This document shows positions 28,417 through 47,057 of a DNA stretch of 47,499 nt, one piece after another. Numbering within the stretch: position 1 is the stretch's first letter; every line of letters begins with the position of its first letter. Made by a program: the position numbers and the translations under genes. Source of the stretch: a virus. The notes below the pieces were generated by a model. The model saw only the letters and a list, made by a program, of their open reading frames with translations, was not told where the DNA came from and did not search any database. The stretch lies in IMG/VR virus record IMGVR_UViG_3300005096_000101, positions 1-47,499 of that record; one strand, 5' to 3'.

Positions 28417-28528
28417 TAAAGTTGCTTGTAGAGTATTTGAACCTATCCGCGCTAGTGATAAAGATACCGCAATAACTAAACGCCAAGTAATTGTGCATAA
28501 TGCTAAGTGGGATAAGTTGTGTGATTAG
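28358..28528 (+). CDS. Outer-membrane spanin-like lipoprotein, Rz1 type (56 aa)
   Basis: The start is placed at ATG 28358 (or 28361) after AAAGAGG; a longer frame from 28292 has no such site. The sequence MMLGAMLILAGC gives a lipobox LAGC with Cys12 as the acylated residue after signal peptidase II cleavage. The end NAKWDKLCD resembles short o-spanins of proteobacterial phages (HNAxW-LC). It overlaps the preceding spanin-like gene in a different frame, the usual nested arrangement. Its stop overlaps the convergent helicase stop. Confidence 0.72.
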   Translation: MMLGAMLILAGCVTSISGTNKVACRVFEPIRASDKDTAITKRQVIVHNAKWDKLCD

Positions 28529-29727
28529 AACTTTTTACCTACAGGCTCGTAACAAATACCAACTCCAGGTACAACTTTTTTTCTAAGGTGTTTACCTGTA
28601 ATTAATAATTCTATAAATTTTGGAATTTCCATTGTAGGAATTTTAGTAGCCAGAAACCGAACAAGCATATATTCGGGGACTGGCTGCTTTTTATTTTGTA
28701 GCCAGGCTTCCAGTATAAAGTGTTCTGTCTCTGCCATAACCGTTGCACGACCACCACTTGCCATCGCCTTGAATAGATCGGGCATCGCCGCCTCCGCTTC
28801 TAATAGCCATGCAAAAGCCCTACGGTAGTCGCCTATGGTAATTACAAGATCATCATTACGGGAAGCACTTGCAACCATGCAAAGCTTTAGAAGGTGCGCC
28901 GACCGCCTTGTGTTATAGTGTTGTAATTTAGGATGAATAGGGTTAGGCGCATTGCCGCCAAGGTGCCATGGTCCGAATGCACTTTTAGCTTCTATACTAA
29001 ACTCCATTTCCCCATACATATTTGAAACAGTTTGTAAATCTTTAACCAGTTCTTTATTCAGTTCTTTTTTCTTTTCTTTCTTTGCAAAAATATCTACAAT
29101 GTTTATTTCACCGGAGTATATTAAAAGCGTTCTAGAAAGAAAACCTTCTTCCCAAGCGTGTTCAGGTAATGATTTTACAAAGTAAGTTGGCACTCCGCCA
29201 GAGAAAATATTTATTTGAGTGTGTGGAATTTCATAATGTAAATCCTTTCCGCGCCTACGCTGTGTATACTTATGGCAATCATACAGGTTTGTTAAATTTA
29301 CCATAAAAGCTTTATCATATTCTTGTAATAAATCTCCAAGTTCATTGACAGATATTAAAAGAGAATTATAAGTAATTGTACTGGGAGTTACTTGTGGCTT
29401 TATTAAAGTTTTTTGACTATCGTGAAGTTCATCAATCAAACTAGCTGAAGTCATAGACATTGCACTCACATACGCCTTATCTAATTCTTCCCAATATTCA
29501 CGTACCTTAACTGTCATAAGAGTTTTACCTACCCCAGGCGGTGCCACTGTCACAACATATAAATTCGGATACAGTATACCGATAGCATTATCAACCCAAA
29601 CTTTTCTTTCAAGCGCTCCTGCAATAATAGAAATACCGGCCCATTTCTGGAACAGTTTAGGAGAAGCAGATAAGGATACCGATTGGATAAAACTATCTAT
29701 CCAATCTTCTTTTATTCGTTTGTTCAT
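28525..29727 (-). CDS. Putative replicative helicase ATPase, DUF3987-like (400 aa)
   Basis: The N-terminal part (FQKWAGISIIAGALERKVWV, then YPNLYVVTVAPPGVGKTLMT) has Walker A APPGVGKT at residues 62-69. A NELGDLL motif (about 127-133) takes the Walker B/sensor place, followed by FSGGVPTYF. This layout is that of the DUF3987/RepA-like hexameric helicases found in phage replication operons. A helical C-terminal domain ends in CYEPVGKKF. It overlaps the polymerase stop by ATGA, so the two are translationally coupled and likely act together at the fork. Confidence 0.75.
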   Translation of the reverse strand: MNKRIKEDWIDSFIQSVSLSASPKLFQKWAGISIIAGALERKVWVDNAIGILYPNLYVVTVAPPGVGKTLMTVKVREYWEELDKAYVSAMSMTSASLIDELHDSQKTLIKPQVTPSTITYNSLLISVNELGDLLQEYDKAFMVNLTNLYDCHKYTQRRRGKDLHYEIPHTQINIFSGGVPTYFVKSLPEHAWEEGFLSRTLLIYSGEINIVDIFAKKEKKKELNKELVKDLQTVSNMYGEMEFSIEAKSAFGPWHLGGNAPNPIHPKLQHYNTRRSAHLLKLCMVASASRNDDLVITIGDYRRAFAWLLEAEAAMPDLFKAMASGGRATVMAETEHFILEAWLQNKKQPVPEYMLVRFLATKIPTMEIPKFIELLITGKHLRKKVVPGVGICYEPVGKKF

Positions 29728-31289
29728 AAAATGCCTGAGAGAGAGAAAGAATTTTTATTAGAAACTTTAATATATTCTGGAGTTGTTCTTGTATCTTTTC
29801 CTTTCCAAGGTATAAGTCCGTGCAAATTTCCTGAAGGCTTACCATCTGTATACTCAACGTTTCCCCAATTCCAGCCGATCTTTGCTTCTACAGGTACAAT
29901 AAATTCTCTGCCATCTTTAAGTAGCATTGGTACTCGAAGTGCTTCAATTGCCCAGGGAATTACTTCGTCTTCTTCTTCCTCTTTGTATTCGAAAAGAATA
30001 TTATCATGCACCTGAGCAAGAAGACAAACTCTATGTTCTTTCCACAGTTGCAAAATTCCTGTGTTAATTTCATCGCCAGTCATTGATTGTGGCTGGTAGG
30101 CAACTGCTTCACGAATAACCTTAGCATCAGTTGCTCGGCCAAAGAAAAATCTTCTACGGTTAAAGAAGGGAGTTTGTAAAAAATGTAAATGTTTAAGATC
30201 ATACTTTACACTTTCATGATAAGCTGAGATACAAGGAAAAGTTTCAAAGTATGCTACTTGAAAATCCTTAATAGGTTGTACAGGCAGTTTTGTATGCATT
30301 GCCATTGTATGAGGCTGACCAATATAATTAGTTCCATGCCCTAGTTTCTTTGCCATATCTCTGTAAGTAAAATCTCTATAAAAAATCTGATCAGCAATAG
30401 TACGATCTAATTTTCTATCCCCCGTCCATGGTAAATCTTTCCAAGCCATTTTACAGACATAAGTATGAAGATCGCCAGACTCACAAGCATCTAAATAGGA
30501 ACTTGCAAATTCTTCGCCGTATGAGTCAAGAAATAATTCTCTACAAATTGCGCCAACATTTCTTGAGTCTGCTTGTTCGAGATCAAGATTGGCATACTTA
30601 TACCCCGAACGGGCACGAAAACAAGAACGTAAACTTCGTGCAATATTTTGTGCATTAGAACCTGTTTCGTATTCTGTTTCAGCGGAAGATAACCGTCCTG
30701 TATTTGTTCCTGCTATATTATAAGAGGAACTGAAACAACCATCTTTATCTAATGGGGTTTCAAGAAACTGTCTTTGCTTTTCGTAATCACGGAGGAAAAG
30801 TAAATGATTACAAATAGGCTCTGCATAATAATATTGTGTAAGTTTTTCTAATGCTTCTCTATCAGCAGTTCTACCGTATTTACCTGTACTTTTTGAACGG
30901 TTTTTTATTTCTGGAAGACCCAGTACATCATAGAATAGAGAACATAATTGTTTAGAACTACGCCAATTAATTTTAATCCCCAAACCTTGTTCAATAATAT
31001 CTGTAAGATTTTTAGAAAGAAATTCTATTTTCTTTTTGTTATCAGCAAGCACTTCATTCCACTTATGCCGATCAACTAACAATCCTCGAAGTTGCATTTC
31101 AAGAATTGGAGCTTGAAGGTCCAGAGAAAATTGATAAGTATTCATAGATATCTCATCAGTATTTTTCTGTAATCCTTCAAGCACTTCAAGCGTAACACAA
31201 CAGTCAAGCCCATTGTACACCCAATCAGTTTCATTATCTGATAGGTTAGTCATGACTGCAATGTCAGTAGTGTTTATTATTTTTACCAC
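29724..31289 (-). CDS. Family A DNA polymerase, polymerase part (521 aa)
   Basis: The start is GTG 31289, preceded by AGGA with 9-nt spacing. Motif A is LDLEQADSR (Asp236), motif B RDMAKKLGHGTNY (Arg310, Lys314, His318, Tyr322) and motif C QVHDN (His428-Asp429-Asn430). The position equivalent to E. coli Phe762 is His, and the motif C Glu is Asn; both differ from the usual residues. Residues 25-29 (YNGLD) form an Exo III motif (Y-x3-D), but Exo I and II are absent: they are in the gene at 32308-33324. The enzyme is therefore a split polymerase. Confidence 0.9.
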   Translation of the reverse strand: MVKIINTTDIAVMTNLSDNETDWVYNGLDCCVTLEVLEGLQKNTDEISMNTYQFSLDLQAPILEMQLRGLLVDRHKWNEVLADNKKKIEFLSKNLTDIIEQGLGIKINWRSSKQLCSLFYDVLGLPEIKNRSKSTGKYGRTADREALEKLTQYYYAEPICNHLLFLRDYEKQRQFLETPLDKDGCFSSSYNIAGTNTGRLSSAETEYETGSNAQNIARSLRSCFRARSGYKYANLDLEQADSRNVGAICRELFLDSYGEEFASSYLDACESGDLHTYVCKMAWKDLPWTGDRKLDRTIADQIFYRDFTYRDMAKKLGHGTNYIGQPHTMAMHTKLPVQPIKDFQVAYFETFPCISAYHESVKYDLKHLHFLQTPFFNRRRFFFGRATDAKVIREAVAYQPQSMTGDEINTGILQLWKEHRVCLLAQVHDNILFEYKEEEEDEVIPWAIEALRVPMLLKDGREFIVPVEAKIGWNWGNVEYTDGKPSGNLHGLIPWKGKDTRTTPEYIKVSNKNSFSLSGIL

Positions 31290-31300
31290 AGAAATTAATC

Positions 31301-31663
31301 CTAGGGGTTTACGAAGGTTGTAGGCAAACCAATACCCTGCATGTAGGCAATTTCTCTCTGAACGCCGATTGATTTTTCCCAGTTACCGAAAGTAAGAACA
31401 ATCATTTCATGTGAAGCAATCATCATAGCTTTATTATACTCCCACCAAAAAGAAGCGTCTGTTGGTAGGTTATACTTTATCGCCATTTCATGACAATGTA
31501 CAATAGATGAGTATAATCCCAAATCAATTTGAGAAGTTTCAGTATAAGAACGTGCAGCAAGTCGACGTTTAAATTCACTCGCAACAAAACGCTCTACTGT
31601 TTCAAAATTAATGTTAACAGTGGTAGGGCTTTCATCTGAGTAAGGGCTAGCGATGTATATCAT
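31301..31663 (-). CDS. DUF1937 / nucleoside 2-deoxyribosyltransferase-like protein (120 aa)
   Basis: MIYIASPYSDESPTTVNINF, then YNKAMMIASHEMIVLTFGNW, then EKSIGVQREIAYMQGIGLP, follows the Rossmann-like pattern of DUF1937 and nucleoside deoxyribosyltransferase relatives (ASPYs, D/E--a--a--vv, S-Gv--Ei-yA---G-P). A nucleotide-metabolism role is probable; the substrate is unknown. It is one of four small genes lying between the exonuclease and polymerase halves. Its start overlaps the previous stop (TGAAATG). Confidence 0.72.
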   Translation of the reverse strand: MIYIASPYSDESPTTVNINFETVERFVASEFKRRLAARSYTETSQIDLGLYSSIVHCHEMAIKYNLPTDASFWWEYNKAMMIASHEMIVLTFGNWEKSIGVQREIAYMQGIGLPTTFVNP

Positions 31664-31664
31664 T

Positions 31665-31889
31665 TCAGTCTTCCTTTTCCATAAATGTAGTAATTATATC
31701 AATTTGTTTTTCTATAATATTTATTTGTCTGTTTACCGTGCTTATAAGTTTATCACGTTGTACAGCTGCTCGTAGTAATTCTTGATTGCCTTCGCGTAAA
31801 CGATCAATAATTTTTTGCTGAGTTTCTACTTGTTCTTCTAAATTTACTTTATACGGGTTTGTTTTATAAGTATCTTTATAGTCTTCCAT
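31665..31889 (-). CDS. Small coiled-coil protein ending KED (74 aa)
   Basis: It starts at ATG 31889 behind AAAAGGAAAACTGAA. The sequence is almost entirely heptad-like helix (NLEEQVETQQKIIDRLREGN, then LISTVNRQINIIEKQIDIIT). The last residues MEKED come from the ribosome site of the next gene (GGAAAAGGAAGACTGAAATG). The segment around NQELLRAAVQRDKL resembles ENDKLFKAEIQRNE of the neighbouring frameshifted gene, so the two may be paralogues. Function is unknown. Confidence 0.65.
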   Translation of the reverse strand: MEDYKDTYKTNPYKVNLEEQVETQQKIIDRLREGNQELLRAAVQRDKLISTVNRQINIIEKQIDIITTFMEKED

Positions 31890-31904
31890 TTCAGTTTTCC
31901 TTTT

Positions 31905-32109
31905 CTAAAGACGCGTAACAAGTCTATTGATAGTATCTGCGTTTGTAAATACAATCTTTAAACATTCATTTCGTTGAATTTCAGCTTTAAAAAGTTTATC
32001 ATTTTCTTTTAGTAACTCAGAGTTTTTCTTACTAAGTTCTACTACTTGTTCTTTTAAAAGAGTATTTTCTTCTAATAGATTTTTTTTTAAGTAAATTATC
32101 TTTTACCAT
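31905..32109 (-). pseudogene. Coiled-coil gene with +1 frame break at an A9 run
   Basis: ATG 32109 follows AAGGAAGATTAAA. After MVKDNLL the frame meets a run of nine A (T9 on the plus strand, 32090-32098) and ends soon after. Removing one A opens a clean frame to TAG 31905-31907, giving about 67 residues of coiled coil (NLLEENTLLKEQVVELSKKN and on, ending NRLVTRL). The reading is continuous, with good codon use. It may be a homopolymer sequencing error, transcriptional slippage on the A run, a phase-variable gene or a recent mutation. Confidence 0.6.
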
Positions 32110-32110
32110 T

Positions 32111-32308
32111 TTAATCTTCCTTCACTAAAAAATGTTCAAGTTTTTCTTTACTTTTTGCACTACTTAAAATTTGATTTACATAAAGCATAGAATTTAAATC
32201 CCAAGTTTCTTTATCTTCCTTTTTTCTTCTATCATATATTTGCACGTCAATAGTTTTGGCTGACATAAACCATTTAACTGCTACAAAATTATGATTAGAA
32301 TTATCCAT
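32111..32308 (-). CDS. Small hypothetical protein (65 aa)
   Basis: ATG 32308 overlaps the stop of the exonuclease gene (TAATG) and is preceded by AAAAAGGAAGAC, so it is preferred over the in-frame codon at 32353. The protein MDNSNHNFVAVKWFMSAKTI is followed by VQIYDRRKKEDKETW and a helical end LEHFLVKED. It is probably beta-alpha with a basic patch. It ends in KED like its neighbours, because the ribosome site of the next gene encodes those residues. No family is recognised. Confidence 0.65.
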   Translation of the reverse strand: MDNSNHNFVAVKWFMSAKTIDVQIYDRRKKEDKETWDLNSMLYVNQILSSAKSKEKLEHFLVKED

Positions 32309-33324
32309 TAGTCTTCCTTTTTCCGTGTAGATTTTGTTCTCATAAATTTCCAACTTGCCTCATTAGTATGAATGCTTGCCAGAAACCCTAAGCTCTTTTT
32401 CATCTCGGGTTGTTGTGCGTGTTGCAGCAGCATAGTATCATTAGCCATATAAGGAACTGTGATCCCATATTTTTCCCATAGAAACCGTACATCATATAAA
32501 AAATTCTGCCCAACAACAGCTTTATCCAGCCCGCACATTCGCCTGACAAATTTCCATGCCTTTAATTCTTCTTCAAGTGTTTTCCAATAGTTTTTTCTTA
32601 CAGCCGTCCGCGAGTAAAAAGGTACCACCAAGGCCACAGAAGTAGAAGGAGCAAAGCCAATGCAAGTAATCTGTTCTTGAGCTGTCTCAATGTCGATGGA
32701 AAGTACTTGAGAATGTCTGATATAATTTTCATAGAATATCTCCAAGTCTTTTAAAGTTGGTTCAAGCCATATGTTTCTCTCAGGTCTAATGACTTCTGGA
32801 AAGTAAGACTGGCGAAGTGCCTTACAACAATCAGCTATTACTATCGGGCGCATTGTCCAGTCCCGTAGTACTGCAAGCATATTATTTATAGGGATAACTT
32901 TGTGTTTGGTGTAAAGACTTTCAGTAGGAATACCTCGGCAAGAAGCTATCATGCCTGTACCTATTGTTGCCCACGCAGAAGCTGGTCCTACCGCAATAAT
33001 AAGATTAGGGTTTAATTCACGTATACGAACTTGCAGCGCTTCAACAAAAACATAGTATTCTTTCTTAATATACTTTCCCCGCTTTAATGCCGGTATCCCT
33101 TTAATACTTTCAGTTCTTTTTCCAAATAAATTTTTCTCAATACTAAGTGTAGGTTTAACCTGAAAAGGAAACACACAATCAATAGCGCACTCATCCATAA
33201 CTATTCCAGATTGGGAAAGAATACCTTTAAGAGTATAACCAGCACTACCGGCAAACGGACCCCATTCACCTGTATCGCTGTTACGATTAAAAGACTCAGC
33301 AAGAAGAAGAATTTTATTTTTCAT
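32308..33324 (-). CDS. UDG-like domain plus N-terminal part of a 3'-5' exonuclease (split family A polymerase) (338 aa)
   Basis: Residues 1-175 resemble the uracil-DNA glycosylase fold (LLLAESFNR, then GPFAGSAGYTLKGILSQSGI, NPNLIIAVGPASAWATIG), but the GEAPG and C-terminal HP-type active-site motifs are degenerate, so glycosylase activity is doubtful. Residues 206-325 are a DnaQ-like exonuclease: Exo I SIDIETA (Asp211, Glu213) and Exo II VGQNFLYDVRFL (Asn274, Asp278), then NDTMLL and KSLGFLASIHTNEASWK. Exo III is missing and lies at the start of the polymerase gene. UDG-like domains at the N-terminus of family A polymerases are known in some phages such as SPO1. Confidence 0.82.
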   Translation of the reverse strand: MKNKILLLAESFNRNSDTGEWGPFAGSAGYTLKGILSQSGIVMDECAIDCVFPFQVKPTLSIEKNLFGKRTESIKGIPALKRGKYIKKEYYVFVEALQVRIRELNPNLIIAVGPASAWATIGTGMIASCRGIPTESLYTKHKVIPINNMLAVLRDWTMRPIVIADCCKALRQSYFPEVIRPERNIWLEPTLKDLEIFYENYIRHSQVLSIDIETAQEQITCIGFAPSTSVALVVPFYSRTAVRKNYWKTLEEELKAWKFVRRMCGLDKAVVGQNFLYDVRFLWEKYGITVPYMANDTMLLQHAQQPEMKKSLGFLASIHTNEASWKFMRTKSTRKKED

Positions 33325-33521
33325 TGAATGAATTTTTCTTCCGGCAATGATTTTAATTCATCTACAATTGTTTCTAAAATTTCTACTGCATTATACTTTG
33401 GAAGAATTATAACCATAGTTTGCCCAGTATCTTCTAAAACTTCATTCGAATATTTTTCTACTTCCTCTTTAAATTGATCACTCATTTTTGTAATAACGCA
33501 TTCATGCCATCTTAATTTCAT
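33321..33521 (-). CDS. Small hypothetical protein (66 aa)
   Basis: It starts at ATG 33521 after CACAGGAGTTTATTAAA, overlapping the stop of the 46-residue gene before it (ATGA), and overlaps the next gene by 4 nt. The sequence is acidic and helical in the middle (DQFKEEVEKYSNEVLEDTGQ), then MVIILPKYNAVEILETIVDE, compatible with a small alpha/beta protein. No family is recognised. Confidence 0.68.
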   Translation of the reverse strand: MKLRWHECVITKMSDQFKEEVEKYSNEVLEDTGQTMVIILPKYNAVEILETIVDELKSLPEEKFIQ

Positions 33522-33658
33522 TTTAATAAACTCCTGTGAAAATCATTTGCATTAGAAAGATACTCGAAAGTTTGGGAACAAGCTCCGTTATCTTCCCACC
33601 ATGACACACGAAAATACTCAATACCCTTACAAAAGAAGTTGTCCCTGATTATCTTCAT
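33518..33658 (-). CDS. Small hypothetical protein (46 aa)
   Basis: A 46-codon ORF starts inside the end of the methyltransferase gene (ATG 33658, 32-nt overlap) with CAGGAAAATTATT in front, and ends in an ATGA overlap with the next start. The sequence MKIIRDNFFCKGIEYFRVSW continues with an aromatic, beta-rich part (WEDNGACSQTFEYLSNA) and a basic end. The tight coupling at both sides supports expression. Function is unknown. Confidence 0.6.
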   Translation of the reverse strand: MKIIRDNFFCKGIEYFRVSWWEDNGACSQTFEYLSNANDFHRSLLK

Positions 33659-34940
33659 AATAATTTTCCTGAGCTTTTTCGAAAAGTTCTTCATCAATTT
33701 CTAAACCAAGCACAGACTTTGCGCCTAGTTCTTCCGTGACTTTAACTGCGTTTGCACTTCCGCAAGTAGGGTCGAGCATGATCGTTTCTCCATCGACAAG
33801 CATAGACAAGAAGTGACCCAGCATTTCGGTTGGCTTTTCCGACATATGGACTCGGCGAGATGTAGCACCTGAAAAGGAGTTAGCTTTTGCTCTAACAATT
33901 TTTCTATCTCCGCGAGTGCAGAAGAAAGCTGTTTCATAAGTTTGTCTCGGACCTCTGTTGGGGTCTGGTAGTATACCAGTGTTACAAGATTTGTGCCAGA
34001 CTAATGGCATGTATAAAACTCGCCAGCCCATTTGTTCAAGAACTTCTTTGGTATCTTCATAGTATTTCATACTGAACCAAAAGATCATATGAGCAGAGTC
34101 TGCGATTAAATCTTTCCCTACCATGTAATCAATACCGTGGATTAAGTTCCAATATATTTCTTCATCATCTGCGTACGCACCATGTGTTTGTACAGCTGTG
34201 CCTTGTGTAATATTATCAGCGCCAATTCCATAGGGAAAGTCGCAGTGAAGTAAATTAAACTTTGGGCCTGAATATGTTTTAATAAAATTTAAAAAATCAA
34301 TGTTGAGTAGGGGTACAGAATTAACTGTAACCTCATTGTTAATAATCTTTTCTTCCTGTTGTGTTTCAATAATTTCTTTTGCAGGAAGCACTACAAGATT
34401 TTCAAGTTCACTATCTTTACGCCTAGCGTTAGCTCTCTCGGTTAAGCCTTTGGCTACAGAATATTTTTGTGCCTCAATTACTTTTACATTTCCTTCTGCA
34501 ATCTCTTTAGCTATACCTAATTTTTGCGTGATGCCCGTTCGACTTTCGCCAAGTTCTTCGGCTGTATCTCCATGAGACCAATCTTCATTTACAGTTAATT
34601 TAATTTCATGGTATCGTGCAACGGCTGCAACTTCTTCTTGCCATGAAATATTTTCGCGCTTAATGTTTTCTTCCAGTTCTAAAAGAACAAGTTCATCGTC
34701 TGAAAGATCATCAACAAATTGTACTGGAACGTGGGTCCAGCCTAGCATTTTTACTGCTTCAAACCTACGCTCACCAGTAATTAATTGTCCATCTTTTTTA
34801 ACAATAAGCGGGTGGATCAGTCCTAGATTTTTAATAGATAAAGCCAGCTCTTCAATTTTAATTAATTGTTTCCGCTGGCGTGATGGTCGATCTACAAAAA
34901 TACTTTGAGTAGGATAGGAAGTGAATGTACCTGATGTCAT
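33627..34940 (-). CDS. ParB-like nuclease domain fused to DNA methyltransferase (437 aa)
   Basis: Residues 10-170 are a ParB/Srx-type domain (SFIF-VDRPSRQ start, then GQLITGERRFEAVKMLGWTH with the GERR motif, and a helical DNA-binding part ARYHEIKLTVNEDWSHGDTA). Residues about 215-435 are an adenine/cytosine-N methyltransferase: DFPYGIG (234-240, a DPPY-type motif with Phe) precedes the AdoMet motif LDPTCGSANAV, the beta-class order. It may modify phage DNA against host restriction or control early genes. Leader hairpin H4 lies before it. Confidence 0.87.
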   Translation of the reverse strand: MTSGTFTSYPTQSIFVDRPSRQRKQLIKIEELALSIKNLGLIHPLIVKKDGQLITGERRFEAVKMLGWTHVPVQFVDDLSDDELVLLELEENIKRENISWQEEVAAVARYHEIKLTVNEDWSHGDTAEELGESRTGITQKLGIAKEIAEGNVKVIEAQKYSVAKGLTERANARRKDSELENLVVLPAKEIIETQQEEKIINNEVTVNSVPLLNIDFLNFIKTYSGPKFNLLHCDFPYGIGADNITQGTAVQTHGAYADDEEIYWNLIHGIDYMVGKDLIADSAHMIFWFSMKYYEDTKEVLEQMGWRVLYMPLVWHKSCNTGILPDPNRGPRQTYETAFFCTRGDRKIVRAKANSFSGATSRRVHMSEKPTEMLGHFLSMLVDGETIMLDPTCGSANAVKVTEELGAKSVLGLEIDEELFEKAQENYYEDNQGQLLL

Positions 34941-46982: not shown

Positions 46983-46984
46983 GG

Positions 46985-47057
46985 TTTGATTAGAGGGATT
47001 TGAACCCACTACATTTCGATTAATAGTCGAATGCTCTACCAAATGAGCTATAATCAA
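46985..47057 (-). tRNA. tRNA-like gene, anticodon ATT (Asn AAU)
   Basis: The minus strand folds as a 73-nt cloverleaf: acceptor TTGATTA/TAATCAA (7 bp), D arm GCTC/GAGC with loop ATTTGGTA, anticodon stem TTCGA/TCGAA with loop CTATTAA, a 5-nt variable loop, and T arm with loop TTCAAAT. The anticodon reads ATT. Oddities are A34, a T-T mismatch in the T stem, a U1-A72 first pair, discriminator A73, and no encoded CCA (CCG follows). It may decode AAU in this AT-rich phage, or be a decoy or degenerate tRNA. Confidence 0.8.

Follow-up and report, generated by a model that had tools for sequence, protein, structure and literature searches.

The window analysed here, the 47,499-nucleotide (nt) virus record IMGVR_UViG_3300005096_000101 of IMG/VR (positions 1 to 47,499), encodes a family A DNA polymerase (PolA) in two genes, and the residues of its proofreading site are located on two chains. 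This is a real, stable and clade-wide two-gene polymerase, as the same two genes, separated at the same point, are found in the relatives described below. Normally, a single chain forms the whole proofreading site of a family A polymerase. We consider it likely that the two products form an obligate two-chain polymerase with a composite exonuclease site, and that the arrangement goes back to one fission in the ancestor of the clade. The principal features are as follows (aa, amino acids).

32308..33324, minus strand: exo chain, an N-terminal uracil-DNA glycosylase (UDG)-like domain and the first part of a DEDDy 3'-5' exonuclease domain, 338 aa (open reading frame [ORF], phrog_17, PDB profile, AlphaFold model)
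32794..33324, minus strand: UDG-like domain, approximately residues 1-177, family-4 UDG fold, motif His lost (N148)
32686..32694, minus strand: Exo I motif D-I-E (D211, E213)
32491..32508, minus strand: Exo II motif QNFLYD (N274, D278)
32347..32352, minus strand: W325-K326, the last part in common with unsplit homologues, followed by the break loop
29724..31289, minus strand: pol chain, Exo III and the family A polymerase domain, 521 aa, GTG start
31203..31217, minus strand: Exo III motif Y-N-G-L-D (Y25, D29), on the pol chain
30561..30584, minus strand: polymerase motif A, DLEQADSR (D236)
30318..30362, minus strand: polymerase motif B, R...K..GHGTNY.G (R310, K314)
30000..30014, minus strand: polymerase motif C, QVHDN (H428, D429)

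According to the ORF list and the translations, the exo gene runs from an ATG at 33324 to 32308 and the pol gene from a GTG at 31289 to 29724, and both frames are fully open. An initial annotation, made from the sequence alone, had assigned to the first gene a UDG-like domain together with the motifs Exo I and Exo II, and all three are present there: Exo I lies in the sequence DIET, Exo II in QNFLYD, and the product ends in FLASIHTNEASWKFMRTKSTRKKED before the stop codon. The second gene had been described as starting about 24 residues ahead of YNGLD and carrying polymerase motifs A, B and C; the Tyr of YNGLD is residue 25, which makes the distance exactly 24, and the three motifs follow, with the catalytic Asp and the motif B Arg and Lys of a PolA. 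The two halves match neighbouring, non-overlapping stretches of a single PHROG DNA-polymerase profile, phrog_17 (543-788 for the exo half, E 4.6e-17; 802-1246 for the pol half, E 5.1e-44). In Pfam, the pol half matches DNA_pol_A (PF00476, E 2e-29), and the search with the exo half returned no match. The signatures of a DEDDy exonuclease, DxE in Exo I, Nx3D in Exo II and Yx3D in Exo III, are all present but are divided between the two chains; the placement of all catalytic motifs in a single polypeptide is not seen here, because Exo III sits on the pol chain. This division suggests that the proofreading site is composite. The polymerase is most likely the replicase of the window phage.

Relatives were gathered with split-clade queries from cultured phages, uncultured viral contigs and species genomes, with the best 80 loci per scan, which gave several hundred loci. 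In the first locus set, 153 of 168 loci carried both halves on one strand; the halves lay in different ORFs in 150 of the 153 (including L005, which is broken elsewhere, and L007, which is the window itself) and in one ORF in the other three (L002, L003 and L004, the last of which is broken further on). Both halves were present in 135 of the 143 loci of the second set, and all 135 were split. Pooled with the window, these gave 284 two-half loci, 33 of which failed completeness or length filters; the 251 complete loci were reduced to 146 that are non-redundant at 90% identity. Loci with one half only were left out of the counts. Also dropped were the window's own row L007, rows L004 and L005, whose breaks lie at other sites, and L069 and L126 (a likely chimera). 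L069 and L126 are one contig, with the halves on opposite strands and 191 inverted 30-mers, and probably represent an assembly chimera. Six phage records matched the window exo half at E <= 1e-5, and Caulobacter phage Kuura was the only cultured phage found with the same split among the matches listed. The species-genome search yielded only four small contigs of metagenome-assembled genomes, with both halves complete in two (L165 and L166). A DNA-level search with window 29000-34000 among phages gave no match, and neither did a search with the exo chain among plasmids.

The initial annotation had located the break after Exo II and ahead of Exo III, and this position was found in every one of the 146 relatives, always in the same loop. 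The exo chain ends 8-20 aa past W325 (W in 145 of 146; K326 in all 146; WK is also present in the unsplit rows), and the pol chain begins 20-36 aa before the Exo III Tyr. In unsplit homologues, 18-24 aa separate WK from the Exo III Tyr in the rows that could be read cleanly, so that the split chains, tail and head taken together, are about 15 residues longer in most cases. The chain ends of the split clade are conserved, with W-K-x-M-R...KKED as the tail and M-K-I-I-x-T as the head. Three relatives, L010, L049 and L063, have the two halves in frame and only a short distance apart, yet keep a stop codon between them.

On both chains, the proofreading residues hardly vary: D211, E213 and N274 of the exo chain and Y25 of the pol chain are present in all 146 relatives, and D278 and D29 in 145. 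For comparison, the polymerase residues D236, R310, K314 and D429 are present in all 146 and H428 in 145. The sole exception at D29, L018, has an intact YNGLD, and its apparent loss is an artefact of start choice caused by its intein. The pol chain ORF of L018 (6336-8789) is 818 aa long and contains an intein-like insert, which starts with CVRPTAEALTPFG and ends with VTGN before TNLQN. In the window, the UDG-like domain is confirmed by a profile match to family-4 UDGs of the PDB (E as low as 2e-18) and by its fold (1ui0, Z 16.6, 151 aligned, residues 1-177). The window domain therefore has the family-4 UDG fold but not the motif His, which we take to be a catalytic-type residue of these enzymes and which is N148 in the window. 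This His is kept in 121 of the 146 relatives, and the UDG motif residues drift in the window and in several relatives. The contrast, within the same proteins, with the near-invariant proofreading residues suggests that the latter are under strong selection on both chains and that the UDG activity is dispensable.

Structure models were read for confidence, secondary structure and fold matches. The AlphaFold model of the window exo chain alone (pLDDT 90.1) aligned with the Klenow fragment (1kfs_A) over 324-485 only (Z 11.7, 153 aligned). The Exo III residues of the Klenow fragment, which we take to be Tyr497 and Asp501, lie beyond 485 and hence outside the aligned range of the exo chain. This result speaks against a full exonuclease domain in one chain, which the initial annotation had named as the finding that would count against its proposal. 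For the two halves together, we modelled a read-through of L010, a relative with zero gap, composed of the exo chain, one residue in place of the stop, and the pol chain. The mean pLDDT was 94.0 and the pTM 0.91, the sole segment below 50 (313-319) was at the junction, and the model aligned with 1kfs_A over 324-928 (Z 30.9, root-mean-square deviation 4.0, 547 aligned). As modelled, the two halves show completion of one Klenow-like fold; binding is not implied, as the fused model imposes proximity. The earlier claim that an active proofreading site needs both chains agrees with this fold matching and with the conservation of residues on both chains.

We propose that the family A polymerase of the window is made as two chains that would assemble into one enzyme, to which the exo chain would bring its degenerate UDG-like domain along with the metal-binding residues of Exo I and Exo II, and the pol chain the Exo III Tyr and Asp and the polymerase domain. 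The 3'-5' proofreading site would then be composite and would work only in the assembled heterodimer. The loop that connects Exo II with Exo III would have been broken once, in the ancestor of a large clade of phages, and the gene has presumably remained split ever since. Each half would have its own start, with coupling usually through a Shine-Dalgarno (SD) sequence embedded in the exo gene end, and small cargo genes, often DUF1937, would have been gained and lost in the gap. We infer the physical assembly of the chains and the exonuclease activity from sequences and models, and likewise that one gene was broken into two, as opposed to the two-gene state being ancestral. One could also envision that the split is a kept regulatory device and not a frozen accident. 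Fidelity would be tuned by the chain ratio, because editing would occur only with the exo chain docked and the pol chain alone would be exonuclease-free and error-prone; the gap would be a protected slot for nucleotide-metabolism cargo (DUF1937, MazG, DUF7768); and re-fusion would be selected against even where only a stop codon separates the halves. We regard this extension as rather unlikely.

Alternatively, the pol chain might act as a polymerase deficient in exonuclease function and the exo chain as a separate accessory protein of UDG-like or nuclease-like kind, with no joint active site. Such a scenario would accommodate the drift of the UDG motif residues. However, on the pol chain the Tyr and Asp of Exo III vary no more than the polymerase residues, and the exo chain lacks the Exo III helix, its Klenow alignment ending at 485. 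We think that this alternative is unlikely and favor the joint active site.

The unsplit homologues that the initial annotation had suggested for comparison were found with unsplit phage polymerases as seeds; at least 80 loci were obtained, and with five phage records 85 were classified. They form a sister group in which none of the 83 loci spanning the Exo II/Exo III junction is broken there. Breaks at other sites were observed: at the UDG/exo border in L180 and L213; before motif A in L004, L239, L241 and L247, in L218 by frameshift, and just before motif A in Vibrio phage VS-ABTNL-3, with an in-frame stop nearby in L220 and L221; and after Exo III in L005. The polymerase family thus breaks repeatedly, and the large stable split clade uses one site. 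Five unsplit members, L233-L237, are 1,017-1,117 aa long (L237 is open at the contig end) and carry an intein-like insert of slightly under 300 aa at motif B.

A FastTree phylogeny of 85 split rows, 34 unsplit rows and 6 rows split in another way required one change between split and the rest, and a FastTree phylogeny of 185 rows likewise gave one change. One change was also obtained with IQ-TREE (LG+C20, quick) after removal of the junction columns, for 54 split rows and 40 others (SH-aLRT 100). L018 was left out of the 185-row tree and the IQ-TREE subset because its intein had mis-set its pol start. The single branch, together with the presence of the split in all 146 relatives, bears out the earlier view of a stable split as opposed to a frameshift. 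The short-gap state (<=10 nt) showed 13 changes on the 185-row tree, indicating that the gap collapsed at least 13 times. No re-fusion was seen among the sampled split-clade loci, even in L010, L049 and L063, and gene fission looks irreversible within this sample of sequences.

Several points weigh against the proposal of a two-chain enzyme derived by fission. The assembly and activity of the two chains are deduced from sequences and models, and the conservation of residues could partly reflect a structural and not a catalytic need. The composite fold was modelled on the read-through of a relative, in which the halves are held together, and the alignment behind that model included unsplit homologues. 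Because the scans used split-clade queries and the best 80 loci each, unsplit or re-fused members may be undersampled. Finally, the tree is unrooted, so that fission is parsimonious, given that PolA is usually one chain, but not proven. The last point bears on the possibility that the two-gene state is ancestral for the group and that the one-gene polymerases arose by fusion, with which a single branch separating the two states is compatible. Nevertheless, the break lies inside a domain, in a loop, and PolA is one chain elsewhere, as in E. coli and T7 and in the unsplit phage homologues PaMx35 and Tlacuache. One fission is the simpler explanation, and we consider an ancestral two-gene state very unlikely.

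The gap between the halves of the window is 1,018 nt long and contains the following features.

32310..32321, minus strand: AAAAGGAAGACT, an SD-like stretch in the 3' end of the exo gene, which encodes KKED-stop and is placed for the next gene (TAATG overlap)
32111..32308, minus strand: cargo ORF of 65 aa without a family (read from a TTG as 80 aa, the frame gave none above the cut-off)
31905..32109, minus strand: cargo ORF, about 67 aa, coiled-coil-like, frame broken at the A9 run
31665..31889, minus strand: cargo ORF, 74 aa, coiled-coil-like, no family above the cut-off
31301..31663, minus strand: DUF1937 gene (nucleoside 2-deoxyribosyltransferase-like), 120 aa, directly upstream of pol (PF09152, E 3.4e-9; phrog_355, E 1.3e-5)

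Four small genes had been counted in this 1.0-kb break. Three are intact (65, 74 and 120 aa), but the frame of the fourth is broken at an A9 run (32080-32088), which may be a sequencing error, decay or programmed slippage. A ribosome site had also been claimed for each half. The stop codon of the exo gene and the start codon of the following ORF share the sequence TAATG, with AAAAGGAAG immediately upstream, and AGGA lies upstream of the pol GTG. The stretch AAAAGGAAGACT immediately precedes two gap starts in the window and has 5 matches with at most one mismatch, against 0.62 expected. Across the relatives, an SD core is present in the last 21 nt of the exo gene in 124 of 146, compared with 28 of 146 at a control offset, and an ATG is found near the exo stop in 117. 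The common exo C-terminus K(K/R)(E/D)(D/E) fits an SD core embedded near the stop codon.

The gap varies from −4 to 1,924 nt among the 146 relatives (median 494) and is <=10 nt in 17 of them. A DUF1937-like gene, usually directly before pol, is present in 57 of 85 relatives, a number that consists of 51 strict cases and six boundary cases added by eye, and in 72 of 146 when the count was repeated at a different cut-off. Other cargo includes MazG and DUF7768 proteins, and 60 of 139 gap ORFs have no relative in the set. One might suppose that an intron or a split intein between the halves is removed, so that one full-length polymerase results. The authors of the OM43 phage report state that group I introns are frequent in phage polymerase genes and suggest one for the split PolA described there (PMC10580990), and inteins do occur in this polymerase family (L018, and intein-like inserts in L233-L237). 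In contrast, an Rfam scan of the window, which covers known intron classes, found no intron family, its sole match being a tRNA; the zero-gap relatives and those with ATGA or TAATG overlaps have no space for an intron; the gap contains ordinary protein genes of variable kind; and the chain ends have their own conserved sequence, with no recognisable intein blocks. Joining by intron or intein was rejected, chiefly on the Rfam result and the zero-gap relatives, and is highly improbable. That the split is a recent mutation in a decaying gene or an assembly error in one contig has practically nothing to recommend it apart from the gap ORF broken at the A9 run, as the same break in 146 of 146 relatives, cultured Kuura included, and two fully open frames led us to reject an assembly or frameshift artefact.

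Split phage PolAs are already known, and those compared here, LUZ24 and MEP401, are cut elsewhere than the window clade. Kuura (OQ067476; Kuura_029 and Kuura_026) has the same two-chain layout and break as the window, with 34% identity in each half, but has two unrelated small genes in the gap, and its exo half is annotated 'hypothetical protein'. The available portions of its isolation paper name a DNA polymerase and make no mention of the split (PMC9959647). In Pseudomonas phage LUZ24 (NC_010325), a 'DNA polymerase exonuclease subunit' and a 'DNA polymerase part II' are likewise on separate genes with other genes between. As judged by eye, however, its exonuclease subunit gp25 (169 aa) has all three motifs, with Exo III as YCLQD, on a single chain and hence an undivided active site, whereas the exo chain of the window is without Exo III; the LUZ24 polymerase part is further interrupted (gp34, gp36). 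T4-like phages have a split gp43, a family B polymerase, on which our literature search gave nothing. In the OM43 phage MEP401 (OP830906), PolA is spread over two ORFs that are separated by a small one (PMC10580990). By eye, its break lies before motif A within the polymerase domain (gp13/gp15), with the exonuclease whole in ORF13; this is the break region of VS-ABTNL-3, L239, L241 and L247, and not that of the window.

The unsplit UDG-exo-pol polymerases of the sister group (Microcystis phage Mel-JY34, ctMlz233 and most of L169-L248) share the domain order of the split clade but consist of one chain, with the 18-24-aa WK-to-Exo III loop in place of the tail and head. The E. coli Klenow fragment (1kfs) has the fold of the exo and pol parts together, but in a single chain with all exonuclease residues. 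For jumbo phages, a DNA polymerase III alpha core cut into two proteins that are proposed to reconstitute one enzyme has been described; that polymerase belongs to family C and is cut in the catalytic module, not the proofreading site (PMC7824862). Among the open-access papers listed by our literature search, we recognised none that describes a PolA cut after Exo II and before Exo III, and the available portions of PMC7544198, PMC8599892 and PMC12926913 describe no such split.

If the proposal is correct, many related, mostly uncultured phages have a polymerase whose editing site would have to be assembled from two chains. Editing could then be separated from synthesis by omitting one protein, and the clade would offer a ready-made system for communication between exonuclease and polymerase domains and for the tuning of phage mutation rates. 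It also contains replication proteins that annotation overlooks, as the lack of a Pfam match for the exo half and its label in Kuura illustrate.

Downstream of the pol gene, a primase/DUF3987-like gene has a start that overlaps the pol stop:

28525..29727, minus strand: primase/DUF3987-like gene (PF13148, E 1.7e-7; phrog_14296 'DNA primase', E 1.5e-43)

Upstream of the exo gene, window 33627-34940 (minus strand) encodes a ParB-N domain fused to an N6/N4 DNA methyltransferase; relatives have homologues of it upstream of their exo half. A methyltransferase gene is also found upstream of pol in the annotated records of both Mel-JY34 and ctMlz233. Close to the contig end, the window carries a tRNA-Asn gene (46983-47057, minus strand).

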